Assembly: GCF_947497125.1 (NCBI RefSeq)
Contig: NZ_CANMFI010000003.1
Coordinates: 1 to 64,000 of the forward strand
Direction of reading: 5' to 3'
DNA from: an uncultured Polaribacter sp.
Lineage (GTDB): Bacteria; Bacteroidota; Bacteroidia; Flavobacteriales; Flavobacteriaceae
Length of the DNA stretch: 64,000 nucleotides
The position numbers and the translations under genes are program-made. Shown in pieces: positions 10,873 through 62,609 of the stretch (positions are counted from its first letter, which is position 1; each line of letters starts with the position of its first letter). The notes under the pieces are model-generated. The model made no database searches. It was not told the DNA's origin and was given only the letters and a program-made list of their open reading frames with translations.

Positions 10873-12147
10873 TTATTCTTTTACTGGGCCAATATTTTTT
10901 ATGAAGAAAAATATTGATAAAACTCCTAAAACGACTGATACGCAAATTGCAATAAACGCTGGTGTATAAGAACTAGTTGTTATTTGACCAACAAACCAGT
11001 TCATAATCATCGGAGATACTGCTGCAACAGTTCCTGCTAAACCTGCTAGTGTGCCTACTGAAGGTCCTTTAAATAAATCGCTAGAAATTGTTTGAATATT
11101 ACCAATTGCAAATTGAAAACCAAATAAAGCTAATCCTGCAAAATAGATAAACATCATAAAATCATCTGCTTTTACCAAAGTAATAATACATACGAAAGCG
11201 ATTAGAATCATAAGACCACCTAAAGAAATTGTTATTTTTCTTGAGATATCAACACTTAACTTTTTCATCAACTTACCTGTAAATACTCCACCTAATATAC
11301 TACCAACAGCTGCCATTAAGTAAGAAATCCACATTGTATCTGCAATCTGTTCTATACTTAAATTGTATTTGCTATTTAGATATATTGGCATCCAACCTGC
11401 AAAGAACCACCATATTGGTTCAATAAAAAACCTACACATTAATACACCCCAAGATTCTTTATGACTTAATATTTTAAGTACAGGTAAACTTTTAGATTTT
11501 ACCTCAGTTACATTATCTGGCTTTTCTATTCTATCAGAAATGATTAAGTCTCTCTCTTCTTGTGTAACCCAAGGATGTTTTTCTGGTGTAGATTTATTTA
11601 AAAATAACCATGGAATAACCCAAAGAATCCCTACAGAACCTAATATGATGTAAGTAGTTTTCCATCCAAATCTTGTATACAAAAAAACAATAACAAAAGG
11701 AGCAATTACGTTTCCTATAGAAGCACCTGCGTTAAAGATACCTTGAGCTATCGCTCTCTCTTTAACAGGGAACCATTCTCCGTTACTTTTTACCGCTCCT
11801 GGCCAATTACCAGCTTCACCTAAACCTAACAAACCTCTAAAAATAGATAGAGATACAATTCCTCTGGCAAATGCATGAAAAGCAGAGGCAACAGACCAAA
11901 TTATTATTGAAACTGTAAAACCAAGCCTTGTTCCAATTTTATCATATAATTTACCTGAAGCAAATTTACCTATCGCATAACATGCCATAAATATATTCAG
12001 CATAATCGCATAGTCTGCCTTATCCATTCCAAGATCTTCACCCATTTCTGGCCACAAAAGAGCAAATGCAGTTCTATCTATATAATTTATTACAGTTGCA
12101 ATAAATATTAATACAATTATCCACCATCTTAAACCTTTTATTTTCAT
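10873..12147 (-). CDS. MFS transporter, hexuronate (ExuT-like) type
   Basis: VINYIDRTAFALLWP, GLGEAGNWPGAVKSNGEWFPVKERAIAQGIFNAGASIGNVIAPF. Confidence 0.88.
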   Translation of the reverse strand: MKIKGLRWWIIVLIFIATVINYIDRTAFALLWPEMGEDLGMDKADYAIMLNIFMACYAIGKFASGKLYDKIGTRLGFTVSIIIWSVASAFHAFARGIVSLSIFRGLLGLGEAGNWPGAVKSNGEWFPVKERAIAQGIFNAGASIGNVIAPFVIVFLYTRFGWKTTYIILGSVGILWVIPWLFLNKSTPEKHPWVTQEERDLIISDRIEKPDNVTEVKSKSLPVLKILSHKESWGVLMCRFFIEPIWWFFAGWMPIYLNSKYNLSIEQIADTMWISYLMAAVGSILGGVFTGKLMKKLSVDISRKITISLGGLMILIAFVCIITLVKADDFMMFIYFAGLALFGFQFAIGNIQTISSDLFKGPSVGTLAGLAGTVAAVSPMIMNWFVGQITTSSYTPAFIAICVSVVLGVLSIFFFIKNIGPVKE

Positions 12148-12173: not shown

Positions 12174-12205
12174 AATTGGTTTACCAATTTGGTTTACCAA
12201 AAATA
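12174..12205 (-). promoter_or_regulatory. Tandem TTGGTTTACCAA operator with overlapping -7 box (MFS-SDR operon)
   Basis: ttggtttaccaatttggtttaccaaaaata; minus strand begins TATTTTTG (TAnnTTTG). Confidence 0.8.
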
Positions 12206-32380: not shown

Positions 32381-33439
32381 TTATTCATTAGGATTTGTAC
32401 CGGCACCCACAGTAGCTTCTTTAAACCAAACTTCGGCATAGCAGCCATTAGCATATTGCTTAGCTATATTTCCATTGTAAGTTTCAGAGCCAGTACTCCA
32501 AACAATATTATCTTCGGGGTTTTTACCGTTAGTTTGGTTGTATGCACCTTGTTTAAAATACTGAATCTCTCCTGCATAGGCATTTTTACGTTCTATACCA
32601 TCTCTTCCAATTGCAGCATATAAAGACCAAATTTGTTGAGGTATATCTGATTTTTTAGAAAAGTCTGATTTTAATAAATTCTTAGTGAATTTAACAGTGT
32701 CATGATTTTTGCTTGAAAAAGTAAGATACATCATTCCTTTATATACATTTATTGTATAGCTAAATTCTTCACCTAATTCAATCCCATCTTTTGGTTCTTC
32801 AGGAAATGTTGTTGCATTTGGTCCAACCACAGACATATCGTTTCCCCAAACAGCAGTAGAGTAGTCCCATCTTTTAGAATTATCTACTTTGGTATTAATT
32901 TCATAATTCCAAAAAACAGATCCTTTTTGATGACCAGGAAATTTCTTATAAAAAATCTTTATTGGTTCGTTTTCATGGCCTTCATCACTATGAATTTGCC
33001 CTACTACAACAGAGTAAGAGGCAGCTACTCTTGCGTCGCCAGAGGTAGATACGTGTTGTACTTTTAATGTACCCGTTAATTTACCACCTGTTTCTGGTAT
33101 CCAATGTTTTTTTTGACCCAATTCTGTTCTTGTGTTACTTGATGTTTTAGAGGTAATACCAGAATTGGGTGTTTTGTAAACTACCCAGTCTGTTTTTTCA
33201 TCGTTGGCAACATAAAAAAAATCTTTTTTATCAAATTTTATCAGCTCGTCAGAGTATTCACCATCTCCTAAAAGAATTTTCCATTTGTCCATAAATGGAA
33301 TAACATCACTAGGGTATTTGATGTTTGTTTGCTCTTTAGCAGGTGTGTTTTTCTTAGTATTAGTACAGCTATTTGTTAATATGCTTAAGCTTAATATCAA
33401 AGTAGATCTTAAGATTGTTTTAGTAATTATTAGTTTCAT
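32381..33439 (-). CDS. PL7-type alginate lyase lipoprotein
   Basis: SSNTRTELGQKKHW, YSVVVGQIHSDEGHENEPIKIFYKKFPGHQKGSVFWNYE, GEIQYFKQGAYNQTNG. Confidence 0.9.
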   Translation of the reverse strand: MKLIITKTILRSTLILSLSILTNSCTNTKKNTPAKEQTNIKYPSDVIPFMDKWKILLGDGEYSDELIKFDKKDFFYVANDEKTDWVVYKTPNSGITSKTSSNTRTELGQKKHWIPETGGKLTGTLKVQHVSTSGDARVAASYSVVVGQIHSDEGHENEPIKIFYKKFPGHQKGSVFWNYEINTKVDNSKRWDYSTAVWGNDMSVVGPNATTFPEEPKDGIELGEEFSYTINVYKGMMYLTFSSKNHDTVKFTKNLLKSDFSKKSDIPQQIWSLYAAIGRDGIERKNAYAGEIQYFKQGAYNQTNGKNPEDNIVWSTGSETYNGNIAKQYANGCYAEVWFKEATVGAGTNPNE

Positions 33440-33468: not shown

Positions 33469-33903
33469 TTAAAAATTACTTTCCTCTGCCATTTTTACAA
33501 CTCCTATAGTTAATATTATATTGGCAAATCTTCTTTGTTCTCCTGTTTGAATTATGAGAGTTGTATTTAAATCTCTAATTTTATCATAAAAAGCCCAACG
33601 CTCCATTTCATTCCAAGTTACATCTCCCAATAATTTTTTATAAGTATTGTGTATTTCTGCATTAGCTGCTGCAGGTTTTTCCATTACTGTGGCTCCTTGA
33701 ATAGGACAAATTTCTAAGATGCCTTTTAAAACGGTTAAAGAATCTAACAATCCTGGTTTAAAATTAAGATGAACAGTGGTTGCATTTTTACCAGCCATAG
33801 CTACAACAGGCAAATTGCCATCTGCAATTACAATTTGTGCAAAATGGCCAGATTTAGCAAGTACTTCTAAAATAGTTGGATGTATTACGGCAGTTTTTAG
33901 CAT
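33469..33903 (-). CDS. RbsD/FucU family sugar mutarotase-like protein
   Basis: LAKSGHFAQIVIADGNLPV, RWAFYDKIRDLNTTLIIQTGEQRRFANIIL. Confidence 0.8.
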   Translation of the reverse strand: MLKTAVIHPTILEVLAKSGHFAQIVIADGNLPVVAMAGKNATTVHLNFKPGLLDSLTVLKGILEICPIQGATVMEKPAAANAEIHNTYKKLLGDVTWNEMERWAFYDKIRDLNTTLIIQTGEQRRFANIILTIGVVKMAEESNF

Positions 33904-33922: not shown

Positions 33923-34693
33923 TTACATATTGTAAACCCCACCGTTAATATCTAAAGTTGCACCTGTAATAAACCCATCGTATTCAGATGCTAAGTATAA
34001 AACAGCTCTTGCAACATCTGCAGCATTACCAGCTTTTTGAATAGGGATACCAGAAATTGTTTTAGCAGCCGACTCTTTGGTTGTGTGAGTATTATGAAAT
34101 GAAGTGCCAAGTATTAAACCTGGTGCAACAGCGTTTACTCGAGTACCTTGTGCACCTAATTCTGTAGAAAGAGCTCTTGTAAAGGTTAAAATAGCACCTT
34201 TACTTGTAGCATATACTAAAGAGCCAGGATGACCGCCTTTTCGTCCTGCTAGCGAAGCCAAATTAACAATGCTACTATGTTTATTTTTTGCTAAATATGG
34301 TGTTGCAGCTTTGGTTACAAATAACATAGACGTCATATTTACATCCATAACTTTGTGCCAAAAATCTGCCTCCATTTCATGTAGCATTTTTCTAGCGACT
34401 AAAGATCCGGCGTTATTTATTAAAATATCTAAACCACCTAAAAAGCTAACGGTTTTTTCTACAAGGTTAATTGCATCTGCTTCCTTTGTTAGATCGCCAC
34501 TTATAGCTATTGCTTTAACGCCATTTTTTAGTGCGTATTTTTTAAGTTGATTTGCGTTAGTTGCACTAGAAAAATAATGAATTGCAACATGAGCTCCCTG
34601 ATCGATAAAATGTTGTGTAATTGCCTCTCCTATTCCTTGTGCACCTGCAGTTATTAGTACCTTTTTTCCGGCTAGTTTGTTATTGTTTTTCAT
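33923..34693 (-). CDS. SDR-family oxidoreductase (second)
   Basis: TAGAQGIGEAITQHF, NNAG, VNLASLAGRKGGHPGSLVYATSKGA. Confidence 0.88.
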   Translation of the reverse strand: MKNNNKLAGKKVLITAGAQGIGEAITQHFIDQGAHVAIHYFSSATNANQLKKYALKNGVKAIAISGDLTKEADAINLVEKTVSFLGGLDILINNAGSLVARKMLHEMEADFWHKVMDVNMTSMLFVTKAATPYLAKNKHSSIVNLASLAGRKGGHPGSLVYATSKGAILTFTRALSTELGAQGTRVNAVAPGLILGTSFHNTHTTKESAAKTISGIPIQKAGNAADVARAVLYLASEYDGFITGATLDINGGVYNM

Positions 34694-34701
34694 TTGTTTT
34701 T

Positions 34702-35802
34702 TTATTTTTTGTGTAAATCATTTTTAGCAAAATAACCATCATTAGATACTGCCTCTTTACTAATTTTTAAACTTGCTTTTTTAAACCAAACCTCTGCATA
34801 ATTACCATCTTTGTATTGTTTTTCGATGTCTCCATTATGAGTTTCTGCACCAGAACACCAGTTTTTATTAACTGATGGCGATTTTCCGTTTGTTTGATTG
34901 TAACATCCTAATTTAAAAAAACATCCTTCGCCTTTGTATGCGTTTTTTTTCTCTAATCCGTTTTGGCCTATTGGTACAAAAAGTTTTTGTGTTTGTGCGG
35001 GTATGCTTTTAGGATTTGTATATTCTGATGCGATTAAGTTTTTTGTAAAAGTCTTTGTTTCATGTTCTGGACTAGAAAATATTAATGTCATAATGCCGTC
35101 TTTAACATTTACTTCATAACTAAATTCTTCTCCAAGTTTAATGCCTTCTGTTGGTTCTTCTGGCGGAGTGTTGGCATTAGAACCAACTACAGAAAAATCA
35201 TTGCCCCAAACTGCAGTAGAAAAATCCCACCTTAATGAATTGTCTTCTCCGGCTGTATTAATTTCATAATGCCAGAAAACAGAGCCTTTTGTATGACCAG
35301 GATAAATTTTATAGAATATTTTTAGCGGTTCGTTTTCATGATTATCGGCACTGTGTATTTGCCCAACAACAACCGAATGCGAAGCGGCTACAGTTTCATC
35401 TCCAGTTGCAGAAACATTCATTACTTTTAAAGTTGCTGTTAACTTGTCATTGGCTGTTTCTGGATACCATTTTTTTGCTTGCGCCAATTCTGTTCTTGTA
35501 TTGTTTGATGTACCATGAGTATCTCCGCCATTTGGCGATTTAAAGACCACCCAATCTCCTTGAGTATCCGTCGTGGTATAAAAGTAATTTTTATCTTCAA
35601 AATTATTTGCAATTCCAACGTTAGCTGCGTTGCCTAAAATTAATTTCCAATGATCAAAAAAGGGAATAACATTGCTAGCATACATTGTTTTCTCTTCATT
35701 TTTTTCTTCACTTTTTTTTGTTTTTTGTTTACAATTACTAAATGTTATAAGTAGGCCAAAAAGCAATACATAAAGAATACGTTTAGTGTTTAAAATTTTC
35801 AT
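34702..35802 (-). CDS. PL7-type alginate lyase lipoprotein (paralogue of 32381..33439)
   Basis: SNNTRTELAQAKKWYPET, HSVVVGQIHSADNHENEPLKIFYKIYPGHTKGSVFWHYE, FFKLGCYNQTNGKSP. Confidence 0.9.
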   Translation of the reverse strand: MKILNTKRILYVLLFGLLITFSNCKQKTKKSEEKNEEKTMYASNVIPFFDHWKLILGNAANVGIANNFEDKNYFYTTTDTQGDWVVFKSPNGGDTHGTSNNTRTELAQAKKWYPETANDKLTATLKVMNVSATGDETVAASHSVVVGQIHSADNHENEPLKIFYKIYPGHTKGSVFWHYEINTAGEDNSLRWDFSTAVWGNDFSVVGSNANTPPEEPTEGIKLGEEFSYEVNVKDGIMTLIFSSPEHETKTFTKNLIASEYTNPKSIPAQTQKLFVPIGQNGLEKKNAYKGEGCFFKLGCYNQTNGKSPSVNKNWCSGAETHNGDIEKQYKDGNYAEVWFKKASLKISKEAVSNDGYFAKNDLHKK

Positions 35803-35814
35803 ATTGTGTTTGTT

Positions 35815-36516
35815 TTAGTTGTTGTTTTCTATGTAATTAGATAATTTATAAAAATGTTTTTTCATCATTTCTGATGCTAAAATTTCATCATTTGCTTCAA
35901 TAGCTAGGTAAATATCCTCGTGCTTTTTAATTTCGGTTACTACTTTATCACCCTCACAAACGTCGCCTCTTTCGTAAGTAGATAGTATCGGAGGTGTTAT
36001 TAATAACATTAAAGAAACCATTGTGTTATTTTTACTAGCTTTTGCAATTGCCAAATGAAATAGTAGGTCTTCTTCTAAATAATCATCACCAATAGTTATT
36101 TTTGCTTTAAAGGCATTTAAGGCTTCTTTAATTCGAATTAAATCATCAGTTGTTCTTCTTTGTGCGGCTAATTTTACTATTTTAAGCTCTAGAGAAATTC
36201 TTGTTTCTGCTAATTCTTTAAAAGAGGGGCCGTTTAAAGCGATAATTTCATCAACAATACCATTAAAACCTGTTAAACCTATTGCTAAAATGGTACCGCT
36301 TTGAGACATCGATTTAACAACACCATAAAATTCTAATTTTCTAATTGCCTCTCTAATATGATTTCTTTTAACGTCAAATTTTTCAGACATTACTCTTTCA
36401 GAAGGTAATTTATCTCCACGTTCTAAATTTTTACTATTGATAAGATTTTTAATCTTAAAAATAATTTCATTTTGTAAAATTTTAGTTGTGCTATTGTCTA
36501 TTAAACTAATTTTCAT
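35815..36516 (-). CDS. GntR-family regulator, FadR/FCD type (second)
   Basis: GDKLPSERVMSEKFDVKRNHIREAIRKLEFYGVVKSMSQSGTIL; paralogue of 12293..12997. Confidence 0.9.
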   Translation of the reverse strand: MKISLIDNSTTKILQNEIIFKIKNLINSKNLERGDKLPSERVMSEKFDVKRNHIREAIRKLEFYGVVKSMSQSGTILAIGLTGFNGIVDEIIALNGPSFKELAETRISLELKIVKLAAQRRTTDDLIRIKEALNAFKAKITIGDDYLEEDLLFHLAIAKASKNNTMVSLMLLITPPILSTYERGDVCEGDKVVTEIKKHEDIYLAIEANDEILASEMMKKHFYKLSNYIENNN

Positions 36517-36541: not shown

Positions 36542-37816
36542 CTAAAAATATTCTAAAAGAGCCAGTACCCCGTTGTAAGAGATGATACAGGCAAATAAAA
36601 GTGATGCTATTAAACCTATGTTTACTAACAAATTGGTTTTATATTCTTTCATTACTTTTTTACTGTTTATCATTATTAGAATACCAAAAATTACAATTGG
36701 TAGTACAAAAACATTAAATACTTGCGATAGTATTTGAATTTCTATCGGATTTGCGCCAAAAGCAGGGCCAATAAGCGCAACTAAACAAGCTATGGCTGTA
36801 ATAATTCTAAATTGTTTAGAGTTGGTGTCTAAAGTGCCAGATTGATAATCTGCAATTAATAAAGGAGCAATTAATAAACAAGGAAAAATTGAAGATAAGC
36901 CGGCGCTTAATGCTCCAAAAAAGAAGATTGATACTGCCCATTTACCAGCTACAGGCTCTAATGTATTTGCCATATCTAAAACTTGGGTTACTTCTTTGCC
37001 CTCATAATACAGAGCGCCCGCGGCTACTGCCATTATAACGCCACTAATAATAAATATTAAAATAGCTGCTGTAATAGCGTCTTTTTTCTGCTGTCCTAAA
37101 TTTTTAATTCCCCAACCTTTTCCCTTTACAAATAATGGTCTTGATAGAAAAGTTGCAGAAGCCATGGTAGTACCTACAAAAGCAGCAACCAACATTTTGC
37201 CGCCGGTTACATTTGGTATTGTTGGTAAAAGTCCTTTGATAACATCTGTTGTTAATGGTTGTACAAAACATAAAGATAAAATGAATGATAAGCCCATTAA
37301 GGATACAAATATGACTAGTATTTTTTCGAAAAAACTATATTTTCCGACTAACATTAATAGATAAAAAACTACAATAATCAAGATAGCTATTGTTAAGACA
37401 GTTTCATATTTAAAGTTTGTTAGGTTGTCAAAGTTTAGTGCTAGAATTTCATAAATAATATTTGCCGAAATGCCTAAAATTCCCATTAAAGAATTCCATT
37501 GGCCAAAGGTAACTCCAACAATAATTAATAAGGCTAATGCCTTGCCAAACTTTATGTGTTTTTTAAATCCGTAGAGTGCCGTTTCTCCGGTAATTAAACC
37601 GTAATTACCATATGCGAACATTAAAATTCCTGAAAAAAAACAACTTAAAAACAATACCCATAAAAGTTGCATGTTAAACTTACTACCCGCGACAATCATA
37701 GAGGTTACACTGCCTGTGCCAATCGTATAGCCAATTGCAAAAATACCGGGACCGAAACCTAATATTATTGCGATTATTTTTGCTATGATAGACTTTTTTT
37801 CTTTCGTTATTTTCAT
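36542..37816 (-). CDS. Nramp-fold transporter lacking the canonical TM1 DPGN and TM6 MPH motifs
   Basis: GFGPGIFAIGYTIGTGSVTSMIVAGSKFNMQLLW aligns to Nramp TM1 with GTGS in place of DPGN; FVGTTMASATFLSRPLFV in place of GAxVMPHNLYLHS. Confidence 0.75.
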   Translation of the reverse strand: MKITKEKKSIIAKIIAIILGFGPGIFAIGYTIGTGSVTSMIVAGSKFNMQLLWVLFLSCFFSGILMFAYGNYGLITGETALYGFKKHIKFGKALALLIIVGVTFGQWNSLMGILGISANIIYEILALNFDNLTNFKYETVLTIAILIIVVFYLLMLVGKYSFFEKILVIFVSLMGLSFILSLCFVQPLTTDVIKGLLPTIPNVTGGKMLVAAFVGTTMASATFLSRPLFVKGKGWGIKNLGQQKKDAITAAILIFIISGVIMAVAAGALYYEGKEVTQVLDMANTLEPVAGKWAVSIFFFGALSAGLSSIFPCLLIAPLLIADYQSGTLDTNSKQFRIITAIACLVALIGPAFGANPIEIQILSQVFNVFVLPIVIFGILIMINSKKVMKEYKTNLLVNIGLIASLLFACIISYNGVLALLEYF

Positions 37817-37859: not shown

Positions 37860-39773
37860 TTAATTCCAGTTTGTATGATGATTTTTTTTCGACTCATCGT
37901 CTAATCTTTGATAGGTGTGTGCGCCAAAAAAATCTCTTTGTGCTTGAATAATATTTGCAGAGCTATATGCAGTAGTTATCCCATTAAAAAACTGAACAGC
38001 TTCTGATAAAGCAGGTGTATTTACATCGTTTAAGACACTTTGAGACACCACTTTTTTAGCTCCGTATCTATATGAATTTAATGAATTTAGTAATGTCGTA
38101 TCTGTTAAGATATTATTAGTTTCTTTAAGGGTTTCAACTAAGTTTTCCATTAGTGTAGATCTTATAATACAACCATTCGTCCATATTCTTGCAATTTCAC
38201 TTAACTGAATGTTCCAAGAGTGTTTTTTTGCTGCTTCATTAATCAACTTAAAACCTTGATAATGGTTTATAATTCTTGCAAATTGATACGCTTCATAAAC
38301 ATCATTTATGCTTAGTTGTAATTTTGGTATTTCAGTTTTAGTAATTTTTTCACTCAATTGCAAACGTTCCTCTTTATAAAAAGACGTATATCTAGAGAAT
38401 AGAGCAGAGGTTATTAATGTATTTGGTGTACCTAATTCTGCTGCAGCTATTGTAGCCCAATTACCTGTACCTTTATTTCCTGCTTTATCTAATATTTTTG
38501 TTACAAGCCAATCTTTACCTTCTTTCTTTTTTAAAATAATATTAGTTATTTCTAACAGATAACTTCCAGCAGTTTCTTTCCAGCTTTCTAAAATACTTGC
38601 AATTTCGTCTAGGTTTTTACCCATGGCTTCAAAAATGGTAACAACTTCTGCAAGTAACTGCATCTCTACATATTCAATGCCATTATGAACCATTTTAACA
38701 AATTGCCCGCTGCCTTCGGGGCCAACATAGGTGCAACAAGGCAATCCGTTTTTGTCTTTTGCTGCAATTTTTTCTAAATATAACTGTATGCTTTTATAGG
38801 CTTTTATATTACCACTTGGCATAATAGAAGGTCCTTTTAGGGCACCTTCTTCACCACCAGAAACTCCCGTACCAATAAAATGTATGCCTTTAGAAAGTAG
38901 ATAATCTAGCCGCTCTTTTGTTTTTTTATAATTAGAGTTGCCGCCGTCTATTAGAACGTCTCCTTTAGATAAATACGGTAGTAAATCTTCTATTACTAAA
39001 TCGATTGTTTTACCGGCATTAACCATTAACATTATTCGTCTTGGTTGTTCTAATGAGTATACAAAACTTGCAATATCATCAAAAGCTTTTGCGTTTGATA
39101 ATTCAGCATGAGCTGCTTTAAAATTTTTGGCAACGTTTTCTTCGGTATCGTTTACATGTCTGTTAAACATAGAAATTTTAACACCATTATTGGCTAAATT
39201 TCTACACAAACTTTTTCCCATAACTCCTAAACCAAAGAGTCCGAATTCTGATGTATTCATTAAGTTACTTTTTATGATTGCAATAATTTTTTTTGGTGAT
39301 AAATTGATGTCTATTTGTAAAGCATCTTCAGGGTTTTCTAAGATTTCAAATTGAGATTTAAGTAATTTTGATGGCATAAAATGATTCGATCTATTATTTA
39401 ATCTCTCATTAATTTTATCAAAAGACCCTGCCAAATGTACCCATACAGTTTGTTGCTTAATATCTTTATTTAATAGGTTTCTATAAGATGCTTTTAAAGC
39501 AGAACATACAATTACACAACTATTTTTTGCTAGTTGTTTTTTGGCTAATAGATTTAGTGTTTTTAGCCACCCGTTTCTATCATTGTCATTTAAAGGAATT
39601 CCATTAGCCATTTTTTCTATATTTTCTTTTGGATGATAATCATCTCCATCAAAAAAAGGAATGTTAAATTCTTTGGCAAGAAGTTTTCCGATAGTGCTTT
39701 TACCACAACCAGAAACTCCCATAATAAATATAATTTTAGCTTCGATATCCGTTTGATTTTTTTGGGTGCCCAA
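37860..39773 (-). CDS. Gluconokinase / 6-phosphogluconate dehydrogenase fusion (TTG start)
   Basis: IIFIMGVSGCGKSTIGKLLAKEFNIPFFDGDDYHP (GntK) then FGLFGLGVMGKSLCRNLANNG...IMPSGN...KMVHNGIEYVEMQLLAE (Gnd). Confidence 0.9.
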   Translation of the reverse strand: MGTQKNQTDIEAKIIFIMGVSGCGKSTIGKLLAKEFNIPFFDGDDYHPKENIEKMANGIPLNDNDRNGWLKTLNLLAKKQLAKNSCVIVCSALKASYRNLLNKDIKQQTVWVHLAGSFDKINERLNNRSNHFMPSKLLKSQFEILENPEDALQIDINLSPKKIIAIIKSNLMNTSEFGLFGLGVMGKSLCRNLANNGVKISMFNRHVNDTEENVAKNFKAAHAELSNAKAFDDIASFVYSLEQPRRIMLMVNAGKTIDLVIEDLLPYLSKGDVLIDGGNSNYKKTKERLDYLLSKGIHFIGTGVSGGEEGALKGPSIMPSGNIKAYKSIQLYLEKIAAKDKNGLPCCTYVGPEGSGQFVKMVHNGIEYVEMQLLAEVVTIFEAMGKNLDEIASILESWKETAGSYLLEITNIILKKKEGKDWLVTKILDKAGNKGTGNWATIAAAELGTPNTLITSALFSRYTSFYKEERLQLSEKITKTEIPKLQLSINDVYEAYQFARIINHYQGFKLINEAAKKHSWNIQLSEIARIWTNGCIIRSTLMENLVETLKETNNILTDTTLLNSLNSYRYGAKKVVSQSVLNDVNTPALSEAVQFFNGITTAYSSANIIQAQRDFFGAHTYQRLDDESKKNHHTNWN

Positions 39774-39792
39774 ATTGGTTAACCAAATATAG
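39766..39792 (-). promoter_or_regulatory. Operator with -7 box overlapping the 5' end of the GntK-Gnd ORF
   Basis: gtgcccaaattggttaaccaaatata; minus strand TATATTTGGTTAACCAATTTGGGCAC. Confidence 0.75.
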
Positions 39793-40154: not shown

Positions 40155-42536
40155 TTAATATTGTAAACCAATCTGAACACCAGTATCGTTATTTTCTTTT
40201 AACAATACCGATTTTTTACTTGGAATAAACAAAAGATTATCTTCCCATTTTGGATTTTTATACAAAAGAGCTGTTTCTTTTGCATTCTTACTTATTTTAG
40301 GAAAACCAGCATCATGAAACAAGGAGTTTTTAATAAAATGATTGCTTCCTTTTAAAGAAACTGGAGTTTCTACTCTATAGCTGTCTACAAAAACAGTGTT
40401 AGAAATTTCTACAATATGAATTCCGTTTGCTCTAATTGTATAACCTTTTTCTTGATTGTAAACATTGCTAAAAACACAGTTTTCAATCACTAATTTTCCT
40501 CCAGGGAGTTCTACCGTTGGAGTGTTTCTAATATAGTTTATAGCAGCTTCTTCAATATCTTTAAAAACACTATTTTTTAGAATGATTGTGTTTGCATTGT
40601 AAAAACCAACTTCATCTTTGTCATATGACAAGTTTAAGCCTCTATAACTGTTTTCAAACCTAGTATTTACAAAGCTTAATGTATCTGCTTTTGTACCGTT
40701 ATATGCTTTAAAGATGCTTCCTCCGTCTGTATTTGTGAAGTTTTTAAAAATTACATTATCAACAAAAACACTATACAAGCCATTTTCTTTTTTATCAGGA
40801 GAAACAATGGCATATTTTGGACTAGACGCTTCGCCGTCTAAAATTAAATTATGTAGATTTAGTTTAAAACCTTCATTTACCCTGAAAAAATAGGTCAACG
40901 GTTTGTCTAAATTTTCTTTTGATGTAAGTATAGAAGCACCACCTTTATCACCTTCTATAATTATGTTTTTAGATATTTTTATTGTTTTTTCTAAAACATA
41001 CTCGCCTGTTTTTAAAATAATTTTAGAACCAGCACTAGCTTTGTCTATTGCCTTTCTTAATGTTTCAATACCGGGTTCTACTACAATATCTTTAGGTTTT
41101 ACAATTGGTGCAACAATGTTTGGTTTCCAACCGGTACCTGCTCTTAAGCTTAACGCTTTTGGTAATTTTTTAGCATCTAAATTAAAGGCACCAACATTAA
41201 AAACAACTCTTTTTGTTTTAGTAATATCTTCAGAAAAACTAAGGTTATTTTTAGTGGCTTTTAACAAATCTGGATTTTCTTTTGTTGGTACAGGAACAGT
41301 ACCTATCTCTTTCCAACTCACTTTGGTAGCCGAAAAACCATTTTCGGAAGTACCCAATGCATCTAGATAATTAGAATTAAAATTCACATCAGTATTCTCA
41401 TCAAGAATAAGTACATTTTTTTGTGCTGTATTGTTAAAAACCAAGTTATTAGAAAAATTCACGTTTTTGGGTGCAAGAGATTTTTCTTCATCTTTACCCT
41501 CGCCAAAAGAAATTGGACCTGAATTTATAATGGTATTATTTTGGATATCTACATTTGTAACTTGTTCATATCTGTTTAAGGGCGAGTTTGGCACACCATT
41601 CATAAGAACAATAGGACCTCTATAACCATCACCTTGCAAACCAATCATTAAATTATTTCTAATAATGTGTCCAGAATTGATAACACGAATTCCGCCAGTC
41701 TTAGATAATCCATTCCCTAAAAACACATTTCTTTCTACCAAAGCATTATCGCCATGACGTAGCGTTAATGATCCTTTGCTGCCAATAAACAAGTTGTCTC
41801 TAAAAACATTATTACCAGACTTGTTTGAAATAATTTCAATTTCACCATCGCAACCCGCAAAAACATTTCTTTCTACCAAAGTATTTGAAGATTTTTTAGA
41901 ATTGGCGCTTGTACCAATACGAATGGTTTCTCCTCCGTTTACTCCTAATTCTGGTCTTGCGCCAAATAAGTTGTTATCAATTCTATGATTATTCTCTGTG
42001 TGTTCTTCGCCTTTTAGCCAAACCACTAAAGTAGTTCCAGGACTTACTTTGCCTGTAAAATTATTATGATCTACTCGGTTATTTTTTCCCCAGATATCTA
42101 CCCAATGGTCTTTAATACCTTCGGCAACTTTATAATATGAAATGGTAGAGTTTGTAAAACGACAATTATTTGCAAATTCTTTAGAGTTTTTTCTGAATTG
42201 TACTACAGATTTGTAAGTAGAAGTACCGTCTTTAAACCATAAACCACTTACAATTACATGTTCTCCGTAAATATTTAAAGTAGAATTACCAGAAATAATT
42301 ACTTCGCCAGGGGTTTCTGCTTTTATAATAATTGGCGCATCTTCTGTGCCAAAACCACCAGCATTTAATTTAACATCTTTCCAAACACCATTTTTTAAGA
42401 TAATAACTTCTCCTGGTTTTACAGATTTTACAGCTGCATTAAATGCTTCTATCGAAGCTACCTTAATTTCTTGGGCATTTAGTTGTACGTTAATTAAGAC
42501 TGTAAAAAGGATAGCAGTAAGAGTTGTTTTTTTCAT
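40155..42536 (-). CDS. PL6-type alginate lyase (paralogue of 23555..25855)
   Basis: LKNGVWKDVKLNAGGFGTEDAPIIIKAETPGEVIISGNSTLNIYGEHVIVSGLWFKDG; ETIRIGTSANSKKSSNTLVERNVFAGCDGEIEIISNKS. Confidence 0.88.
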   Translation of the reverse strand: MKKTTLTAILFTVLINVQLNAQEIKVASIEAFNAAVKSVKPGEVIILKNGVWKDVKLNAGGFGTEDAPIIIKAETPGEVIISGNSTLNIYGEHVIVSGLWFKDGTSTYKSVVQFRKNSKEFANNCRFTNSTISYYKVAEGIKDHWVDIWGKNNRVDHNNFTGKVSPGTTLVVWLKGEEHTENNHRIDNNLFGARPELGVNGGETIRIGTSANSKKSSNTLVERNVFAGCDGEIEIISNKSGNNVFRDNLFIGSKGSLTLRHGDNALVERNVFLGNGLSKTGGIRVINSGHIIRNNLMIGLQGDGYRGPIVLMNGVPNSPLNRYEQVTNVDIQNNTIINSGPISFGEGKDEEKSLAPKNVNFSNNLVFNNTAQKNVLILDENTDVNFNSNYLDALGTSENGFSATKVSWKEIGTVPVPTKENPDLLKATKNNLSFSEDITKTKRVVFNVGAFNLDAKKLPKALSLRAGTGWKPNIVAPIVKPKDIVVEPGIETLRKAIDKASAGSKIILKTGEYVLEKTIKISKNIIIEGDKGGASILTSKENLDKPLTYFFRVNEGFKLNLHNLILDGEASSPKYAIVSPDKKENGLYSVFVDNVIFKNFTNTDGGSIFKAYNGTKADTLSFVNTRFENSYRGLNLSYDKDEVGFYNANTIILKNSVFKDIEEAAINYIRNTPTVELPGGKLVIENCVFSNVYNQEKGYTIRANGIHIVEISNTVFVDSYRVETPVSLKGSNHFIKNSLFHDAGFPKISKNAKETALLYKNPKWEDNLLFIPSKKSVLLKENNDTGVQIGLQY

Positions 42537-42557: not shown

Positions 42558-42590
42558 TTATTGGTAAACCAATTTGGTAAACCAAAAATA
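42558..42590 (-). promoter_or_regulatory. Tandem operator with -7 box upstream of PL6
   Basis: ttattggtaaaccaatttggtaaaccaaaaata; minus strand TATTTTTG. Confidence 0.85.
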
Positions 42591-43919: not shown

Positions 43920-44315
43920 AACTATTGTTGTTTTGTATTAGGAACTCTAAAAAAGATTGCAAATAGCTAAAAGGAGTAGATTATTACTGCTTTAGCATTT
44001 TGTTCTACTAACATGATTTAGTTTTTTAAAACATGTAGAAAGAGGTTGCAATCAGTTCAAATTTTTCCTCTATAATTCTTTGCAAAGTTACGTTATAAAT
44101 TGAATACCCAATATTTTTTTTAATAATTTTTTGTGATGACATCATCGATAAAATATTTTTAGTGCTAAATTTCACATCATTTTATAGAATAGTTAAAACG
44201 AACTTGATAAAAATGTGAAATCGATATAAATTTAAAATAATTTGCTTTTTATTAGGATATTAAAATTTTCTGAACATATATTTGCACTCACAAAGTTCAA
44301 TAACTTATTGAAATG

Positions 44316-44435
44316 TTATCAAGAAAGGCAGAGGGATTAGACCCAATGAAGCCTTAGCAACCCTTTTCGTGAGGAAAAGAAGGTGCTAAATTCTACTTAA
44401 TTTTAAATTCATTTATTTAAAATTGGATAGATAAC
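44316..44435 (+). ncRNA. SAM-I (S-box) riboswitch upstream of metY
   Basis: gttatcaagaaaggcagagggattagacccaatgaagccttagcaaccctttt..ggtgctaaattctac...gataac. Confidence 0.92.
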
Positions 44436-44560
44436 TCAAAAACAAGTACACAGCCGTGTAGTTGTAAAAATTCTTAATAACATTTTTCTAGTAAGTACAT
44501 CAGTAAAAAACGAAACTGATGCATTTTGACTTATTTATTAACTCAAAAAAAAACAGAAAA

Positions 44561-62534: not shown

Positions 62535-62609
62535 ATTTTATCACATAAAACTACCACAAATAAAAAATAATCCGTTACTTTGTAACGCAGTTCATAAACT
62601 TATTAATTC

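Follow-up and report, generated by a model that had tools for sequence, protein, structure and literature searches.

In a stretch of 64,000 nucleotides from an uncultured Polaribacter sp. (the window), the gene at 36542-37816 on the minus strand encodes a GTGS-type Nramp-fold carrier (P0001) that is probably an importer of a sugar acid and not of a divalent metal. Judged from sequence and genomic context, the likeliest substrate would be an aldonate such as gluconate, to which we assign the greater part, though not all, of our confidence in a sugar-acid importer. The reading of a repurposed LeuT-fold carrier for sugar acids had been put forward in an earlier annotation of the same DNA (the first-pass annotation), and it is now supported by the clade to which P0001 belongs, by its context, by the presence of GntP in the same slot elsewhere and by a shared operator. 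If these proteins are indeed sugar-acid carriers, a group of bacterial 'metal transporters' would be misnamed in genome annotation, aldonate use by alginate-degrading marine Bacteroidota would gain a missing permease, and it would become possible to test what the Nramp outgroup carries, with a substrate to begin from. It would also mean that one fold shifts between metals and organic acids by few substitutions.

Fold, metal-site residues and family position

The ORF of P0001 starts with ATG, codes for 424 amino acids and has exactly the boundaries that the first-pass annotation had assigned to it. P0001 matches the Pfam family Nramp (PF01566) with 210.3 bits (E 5e-62; gathering cut-off 29.8), which is its only Pfam match, GntP (PF02447) giving none, and it also scores above the cut-off of NCBIfam NF037982, 'Nramp family divalent metal transporter' (84 vs 50 bits). 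An AF2 model calculated from an alignment of 55 relatives (pLDDT 85.9, pTM 0.85) adopts the LeuT/Nramp fold, and its best PDB matches in Foldseek are EleNRMT and DraNramp, at TM-scores of about 0.8 (0.8-0.88). The Pfam match and the predicted fold thus bear out the Nramp-like protein of the first-pass annotation, which had proposed structure prediction as a check. Three groups have been described within PF01566, namely Slc11, NRMT and an orphan outgroup (PMC9606685). The metal motif is missing from Nramp-related proteins (PMC12873925), and it has been suggested that the outgroup forms a bridge to carriers whose substrates are not metals (PMC4072509).

Alignment with DraNramp, BfraNramp and EleNRMT locates the replaced metal-site residues. 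The TM1 motif DPGN (D56-N59 of DraNramp) is replaced by G33-T34-G35-S36 (codons at 37709-37720, minus strand), as the first-pass annotation had noticed, and all four residues are invariant in 65/65 relatives. In TM6, the canonical A-T-V-M-P-H aligns with T216-T217-M218-A219-S220-A221, so that M230, P231 and H232 become A219, S220 and A221 and both the metal-ligand Met and the His are Ala (codons of M218-A219-S220-A221 at 37154-37165, minus strand). The earlier description of this change as MPH to MAS was right in that the motif is gone, but its register was off by one, the M of MAS lying at the V229 position. The equivalents of D56, N59, M230 and H232, and of the TM3 Glu treated next, are all replaced in the core clade (defined by E below 1e-170), in agreement with the claimed loss of the metal ligands. 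Two further changes were absent from that account. The TM3 Glu common to MntH and NRMT (E134 in DraNramp) is missing; its column holds G112 in one of two alignments and I113 in the other, with no acid in the TM3 core in either. Furthermore, an invariant Arg, R226 (codon at 37139-37141, minus strand), occupies the position of DraNramp H237 in TM6b, the inner-gate His of canonical Nramps, which in DraNramp helps to seal the inner gate together with Q89 and Y54 (PMC10185341). Taken together, the substitutions in TM1, TM3 and TM6 and the presence of R226 mean that all cation ligands are missing and that one positive charge is added.

P0001 shares the fold of canonical MntH/Nramp proteins such as DraNramp and BfraNramp (TM about 0.8), but none of the canonical Slc11/MntH features, namely DxxN in TM1, A/CxxM and His in TM6 and the TM3 Glu, is found in it. 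EleNRMT (PDB 7qia) is its best PDB match in both sequence and fold and likewise has no TM6 Met; the TM6 motif of NRMT, TxxA/T, is present (T216xxA219), yet the TM1 motif DxxG is not, and NRMT keeps the TM1 Asp and the TM3 Glu, carries Mg and Mn and forms a separate, fully supported clade. The orphan outgroup described by Cellier (PMC9606685) resembles P0001 in a TM1 without Asp and with G-x-G, but it has GPGT there and His at the R226 position. A tree of 51 rows, a test also proposed in the first-pass annotation, places P0001 in a single GTGS clade of 27 rows (support 100/100), apart from canonical Nramps/MntH, from NRMT and from the GPGT outgroup, the latter sampled from plasmid records and Bacteroidota only. 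GTGS and R226 are common to every GTGS row of this tree, including proteins of gut Bacteroidota and one of E. coli.

The operon and its shared palindrome

The carrier gene is the second of a tight series of seven minus-strand genes separated by gaps of 8 to 43 bases. It lies between GntK-Gnd, a gluconokinase/6-phosphogluconate dehydrogenase fusion 43 bp upstream (37860-39773; TIGR01313 and TIGR00873 above curated cut-offs), and a GntR-family FCD regulator of NanR/LldR/UxuR-like type (35815-36516; PF00392 and PF07729), which is followed by a PL7 alginate lyase (34702-35802; PF08787), an SDR oxidoreductase (33923-34693; PF13561), an RbsD/FucU-type mutarotase (33469-33903; PF05025) and, as the final operon gene, a second PL7 alginate lyase (32381-33439; PF08787). 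The first-pass annotation had named these neighbours correctly; the second PL7 gene is to be added. In the translation of GntK-Gnd, the P-loop and the Gnd motifs GVSGGEEG, VKMVHNGIEY, KGTG and QRDFFGAH are present. Its TTG start at 39773 is probably too early, since a perfect copy of the palindrome TTGGTTAACCAA (39775-39786), the putative operator of the operon, lies directly ahead of GntK-Gnd.

Copies of this palindrome with at most two mismatches occur 22 times in the window, against 8.0 ± 2.7 expected; they precede MFS, SusC, PL17, PL6 and other alginate genes and are often paired 13 bases apart. The form TTGGTWWACCAA is found 19 times genome-wide, 13 of these in this locus, while a reversed control pattern has 3 copies, and the four copies outside the window that were inspected all lie within ORFs. 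Tandem operators stand upstream of a PL6-type lyase gene (40155-42536, minus strand, PF14592; operators at 42561 and 42574). Likewise, operators at 12176 and 12189 precede the ORF at 10873-12147 (minus strand), whose product we take, from reading its sequence, to be an MFS carrier of the same regulon and a second inner-membrane transporter of the locus. The palindrome is thus probably the operator of an alginate regulon, to which the carrier belongs because the same element precedes its operon and the other alginate genes; the GntR protein of the window presumably binds it. Among relatives, an operator with at most one mismatch precedes GntK-Gnd in 11/33 cases (background mean 1.9). In most of the others, lyase genes precede GntK-Gnd, and hence the promoter may be located further upstream.

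Looking along the window from 12176 to 42585, one finds TTGGTWWACCAA palindromes before nearly every gene group of the alginate locus, often in tandem. Also in the window, a SAM-II riboswitch (43982-44076) and a SAM-I riboswitch (44313-44437) lie on opposite strands, 236 bases apart, between metK and a methionine-synthesis gene, and a further SAM-I riboswitch is located at 62608.

Neighbourhoods of the relatives and the GntP slot

A survey of genome neighbourhoods, the third test suggested beforehand, covered 71 loci of the core clade, in which L101 and L036 denote a single place. Enzymes of gluconate, KDG or galactonate type lie within 8.5 kb in 57/71 of these loci, and sugar-acid enzymes, alginate lyases or SusCD are nearby in 67/71. 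With the same query set, sugar-acid enzymes were found in none of 20 random regions, nearly all drawn from clade-bearing genomes, and in none of 20 regions around GPGT Nramps, a further difference from that outgroup. The Fisher p of 2e-11 against each control is overstated, as the loci are related to one another and include a few duplicates, and as the queries were picked from these very neighbourhoods. The variety of contexts is the heavier evidence: core-clade members adjoin GntK-Gnd, or KdgK with KDPG aldolase, or DGOK (2-keto-3-deoxygalactonokinase) with an aldolase and an SGL gluconolactonase-like protein, or a galactonate-dehydratase-like protein, and the enzymes of all four context types act on six-carbon sugar acids. 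The first-pass annotation had held that homologues occurring mostly outside carbohydrate loci would speak against its reading; the core clade is found mostly inside them.

In the DISPLACEMENT comparison, the GntK-Gnd fusion occurs, at 44-57% identity, in other Bacteroidota where this Nramp does not adjoin it. In five of eight such loci, two of them from the window's own genus (G088, G313), the gene adjoining the fusion, with the same orientation, encodes a GntP-family gluconate permease. Conversely, where GntK-Gnd adjoins the Nramp gene, 16 of 20 genomes, the source genome included, hold no PF02447 protein, and GntP and this carrier are both present in the remaining four. The pattern is that of one permease swapped for an unrelated one: GntP and P0001 share the operon slot beside GntK-Gnd and, by prediction, the same job, but they are different protein families and the resemblance would be one of function only. 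In one genome, that of Christiangramia lutea, a shortened GntK-Gnd adjoins GntP (L208:4624-6959) while another GntK-Gnd stands with the Nramp gene (L015), possibly a replacement in progress. In Polaribacter sp. MSW5 (L065:10001-11271), the Nramp gene, and apparently GntK-Gnd too, is split into two ORFs, either a real pseudogene or a sequencing error.

Core-clade members occur in 8/396 sampled Bacteroidota genomes, with wider GTGS members in others. The carrier is thus not a housekeeping gene, and its patchy distribution fits a niche catabolic role. Since none of the sugar-acid enzymes sought are found near the wide GTGS members of gut Bacteroidota (0/14 loci), whose carbohydrate loci are of another kind (GH2, GH20, TonB receptors), we claim the sugar-acid substrate class for the core clade only.

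Substrate, mechanism and the wider family

We propose that P0001 would act as an inner-membrane importer of a six-carbon sugar monocarboxylate, working by alternating access as other LeuT-fold carriers do. A gluconate-type aldonate would enter via the carrier, be phosphorylated by GntK and then be oxidised and decarboxylated by Gnd to ribulose 5-phosphate, and the operon would be controlled together with the alginate genes through the shared palindromic operator. Gluconate or a close aldonate is the best fit on account of the GntK-Gnd neighbour and the swap with GntP; saturated mannuronate or guluronate might also be the source of such an aldonate. Within the protein, the carboxylate and the sugar would be met by backbone amides and hydroxyls of the unwound TM1 loop (IGTGS), and R226 would contribute a positive charge to the pathway's inner half, where a contact with the substrate is our guess. 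Transport itself, the identity of the substrate, the coupling ion and the role of R226 are the parts of this scheme that we infer. Several observations go against it: free gluconate is not an expected product in an alginate regulon, which leaves room for another aldonate or a keto-deoxy acid as the substrate; four of the 20 genomes have GntP as well as this carrier; and the locus also encodes the MFS carrier, the ordinary candidate for DEH, just as at L036, L040 and L044 the Nramp gene shares one operon with an MFS gene and is not the sole candidate importer.

A variant in which P0001 carries an acid derived from alginate, namely DEH, KDG or a saturated uronate, instead of an aldonate such as gluconate is possible, if rather unlikely, and takes most of the confidence in a sugar-acid importer that the aldonate leaves over. 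The operator common to the carrier operon and the alginate genes, the PL7 and SDR genes within the operon and the KdgK/Eda contexts among relatives all suit it, yet the MFS carrier has its own operators, the adjoining kinase and dehydrogenase score above cut-off for gluconate and 6-phosphogluconate, GntP fills the same slot elsewhere, and KdgK and Eda, the usual DEH/KDG route, are encoded far from the locus in this genome. That P0001 still imports a divalent cation (Mg or Mn), serving metal-dependent enzymes of the locus, we consider improbable. A TM1 without D, a TM3 core without acid, the added invariant Arg, a clade apart from NRMT and MntH and the catabolic neighbourhood all speak against it, as does a window without a metal riboswitch, including the M-box, which is found with only some NRMT members. 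It is favoured by the Nramp fold, by the retained TxxA half of the NRMT motif, by the report of YcsG (see below) as a Mn importer (PMC10448178) and by the Mg and Mn transport of EleNRMT, the closest solved relative (PMC8806188). Redundancy within PF01566 gives no argument against a metal role, because P0001 is the sole protein above the cut-off of this family in its genome, where ZIP-family genes are present.

Two further readings seem to us very improbable. Sugar acids chelate divalent ions and the fold is common to metal carriers, so a sugar acid might be co-transported as a complex with the metal as bridging cation; however, no cation ligands are left and none of the data requires such a complex. 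Export of an overflow acid or of a toxic pathway intermediate would accord with the other importer, such as MFS, encoded in some of the loci, but P0001 stands in the place of GntP, a family of uptake permeases that is missing from most of these genomes.

The first-pass annotation knew of no characterised Nramp-family sugar-acid transporter, and we found none in the literature either; there is, however, an organic-acid precedent. Genetics show that Corynebacterium glutamicum needs its NRAMP-family protein PxpT to grow on 5-oxoproline (PMC13274462). YcsG of Bacillus subtilis shares 50% identity with PxpT and has been described as a carrier of 5-oxoproline and also as one of Mn (PMC13274462, PMC10448178). 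Like P0001, which we set beside them by description only, both belong to the NRAMP family and are encoded within an operon for the breakdown of a carboxylate; unlike it, they are tied to 5-oxoproline and a pxpABC operon, and no pxpABC genes were found beside P0001 in the window when the proteins of its operon and of the flanks were scanned with Pfam. The Mn report for YcsG is the main caution for the sugar-acid reading.

The direction implied by 'loss of ligands' may be reversed, since others place metal-site-less Nramp relatives outside the canonical Nramps (PMC12873925, PMC9606685), and such proteins could predate the canonical site. We tentatively suggest, giving it somewhat less than an even chance, that metal-site-less Nramp relatives (GTGS, GPGT and others) would mainly be organic-acid carriers that bind the carboxylate by the TM1 G-x-G loop, that the DPGN of true Nramps would derive from this loop and that P0001 would represent a sugar-acid branch. 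The comparison for carboxylate binding by G-x-G is with APC amino-acid carriers. Second Nramp copies in clade-bearing genomes were at one point taken for canonical MntH; this was wrong, the aligned copies being of GPGT type.

Organic-acid enzymes are again the neighbours of metal-site-less Nramps on two plasmids: in Mesobacillus, a GTAD-type protein adjoins 3-oxoacid CoA-transferase/thiolase genes (L125:5935-7203), and in Haloarcula, a haloarchaeal GPGT-type member of the orphan outgroup adjoins hydantoinase/oxoprolinase genes (L122:5971-7179). The GTGS Nramps of gut-type Bacteroidota lie in a conserved locus with a TonB receptor, GH2, GH20, an SSF carrier and a sugar-isomerase-like TIM barrel (L109:872-17001). 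On the chromosome of E. coli SK1144 (L130:8083-9312), a GTGS Nramp with the invariant Arg is located between genes for an enoyl-CoA hydratase and an FAD oxidoreductase, with CoA transferase and LacI regulator genes alongside, an arrangement resembling an operon for the use of a carboxylate; DNA that matches the stretch is present in 827/5426 E. coli genomes, in 546 of them over at least 80% of the query.
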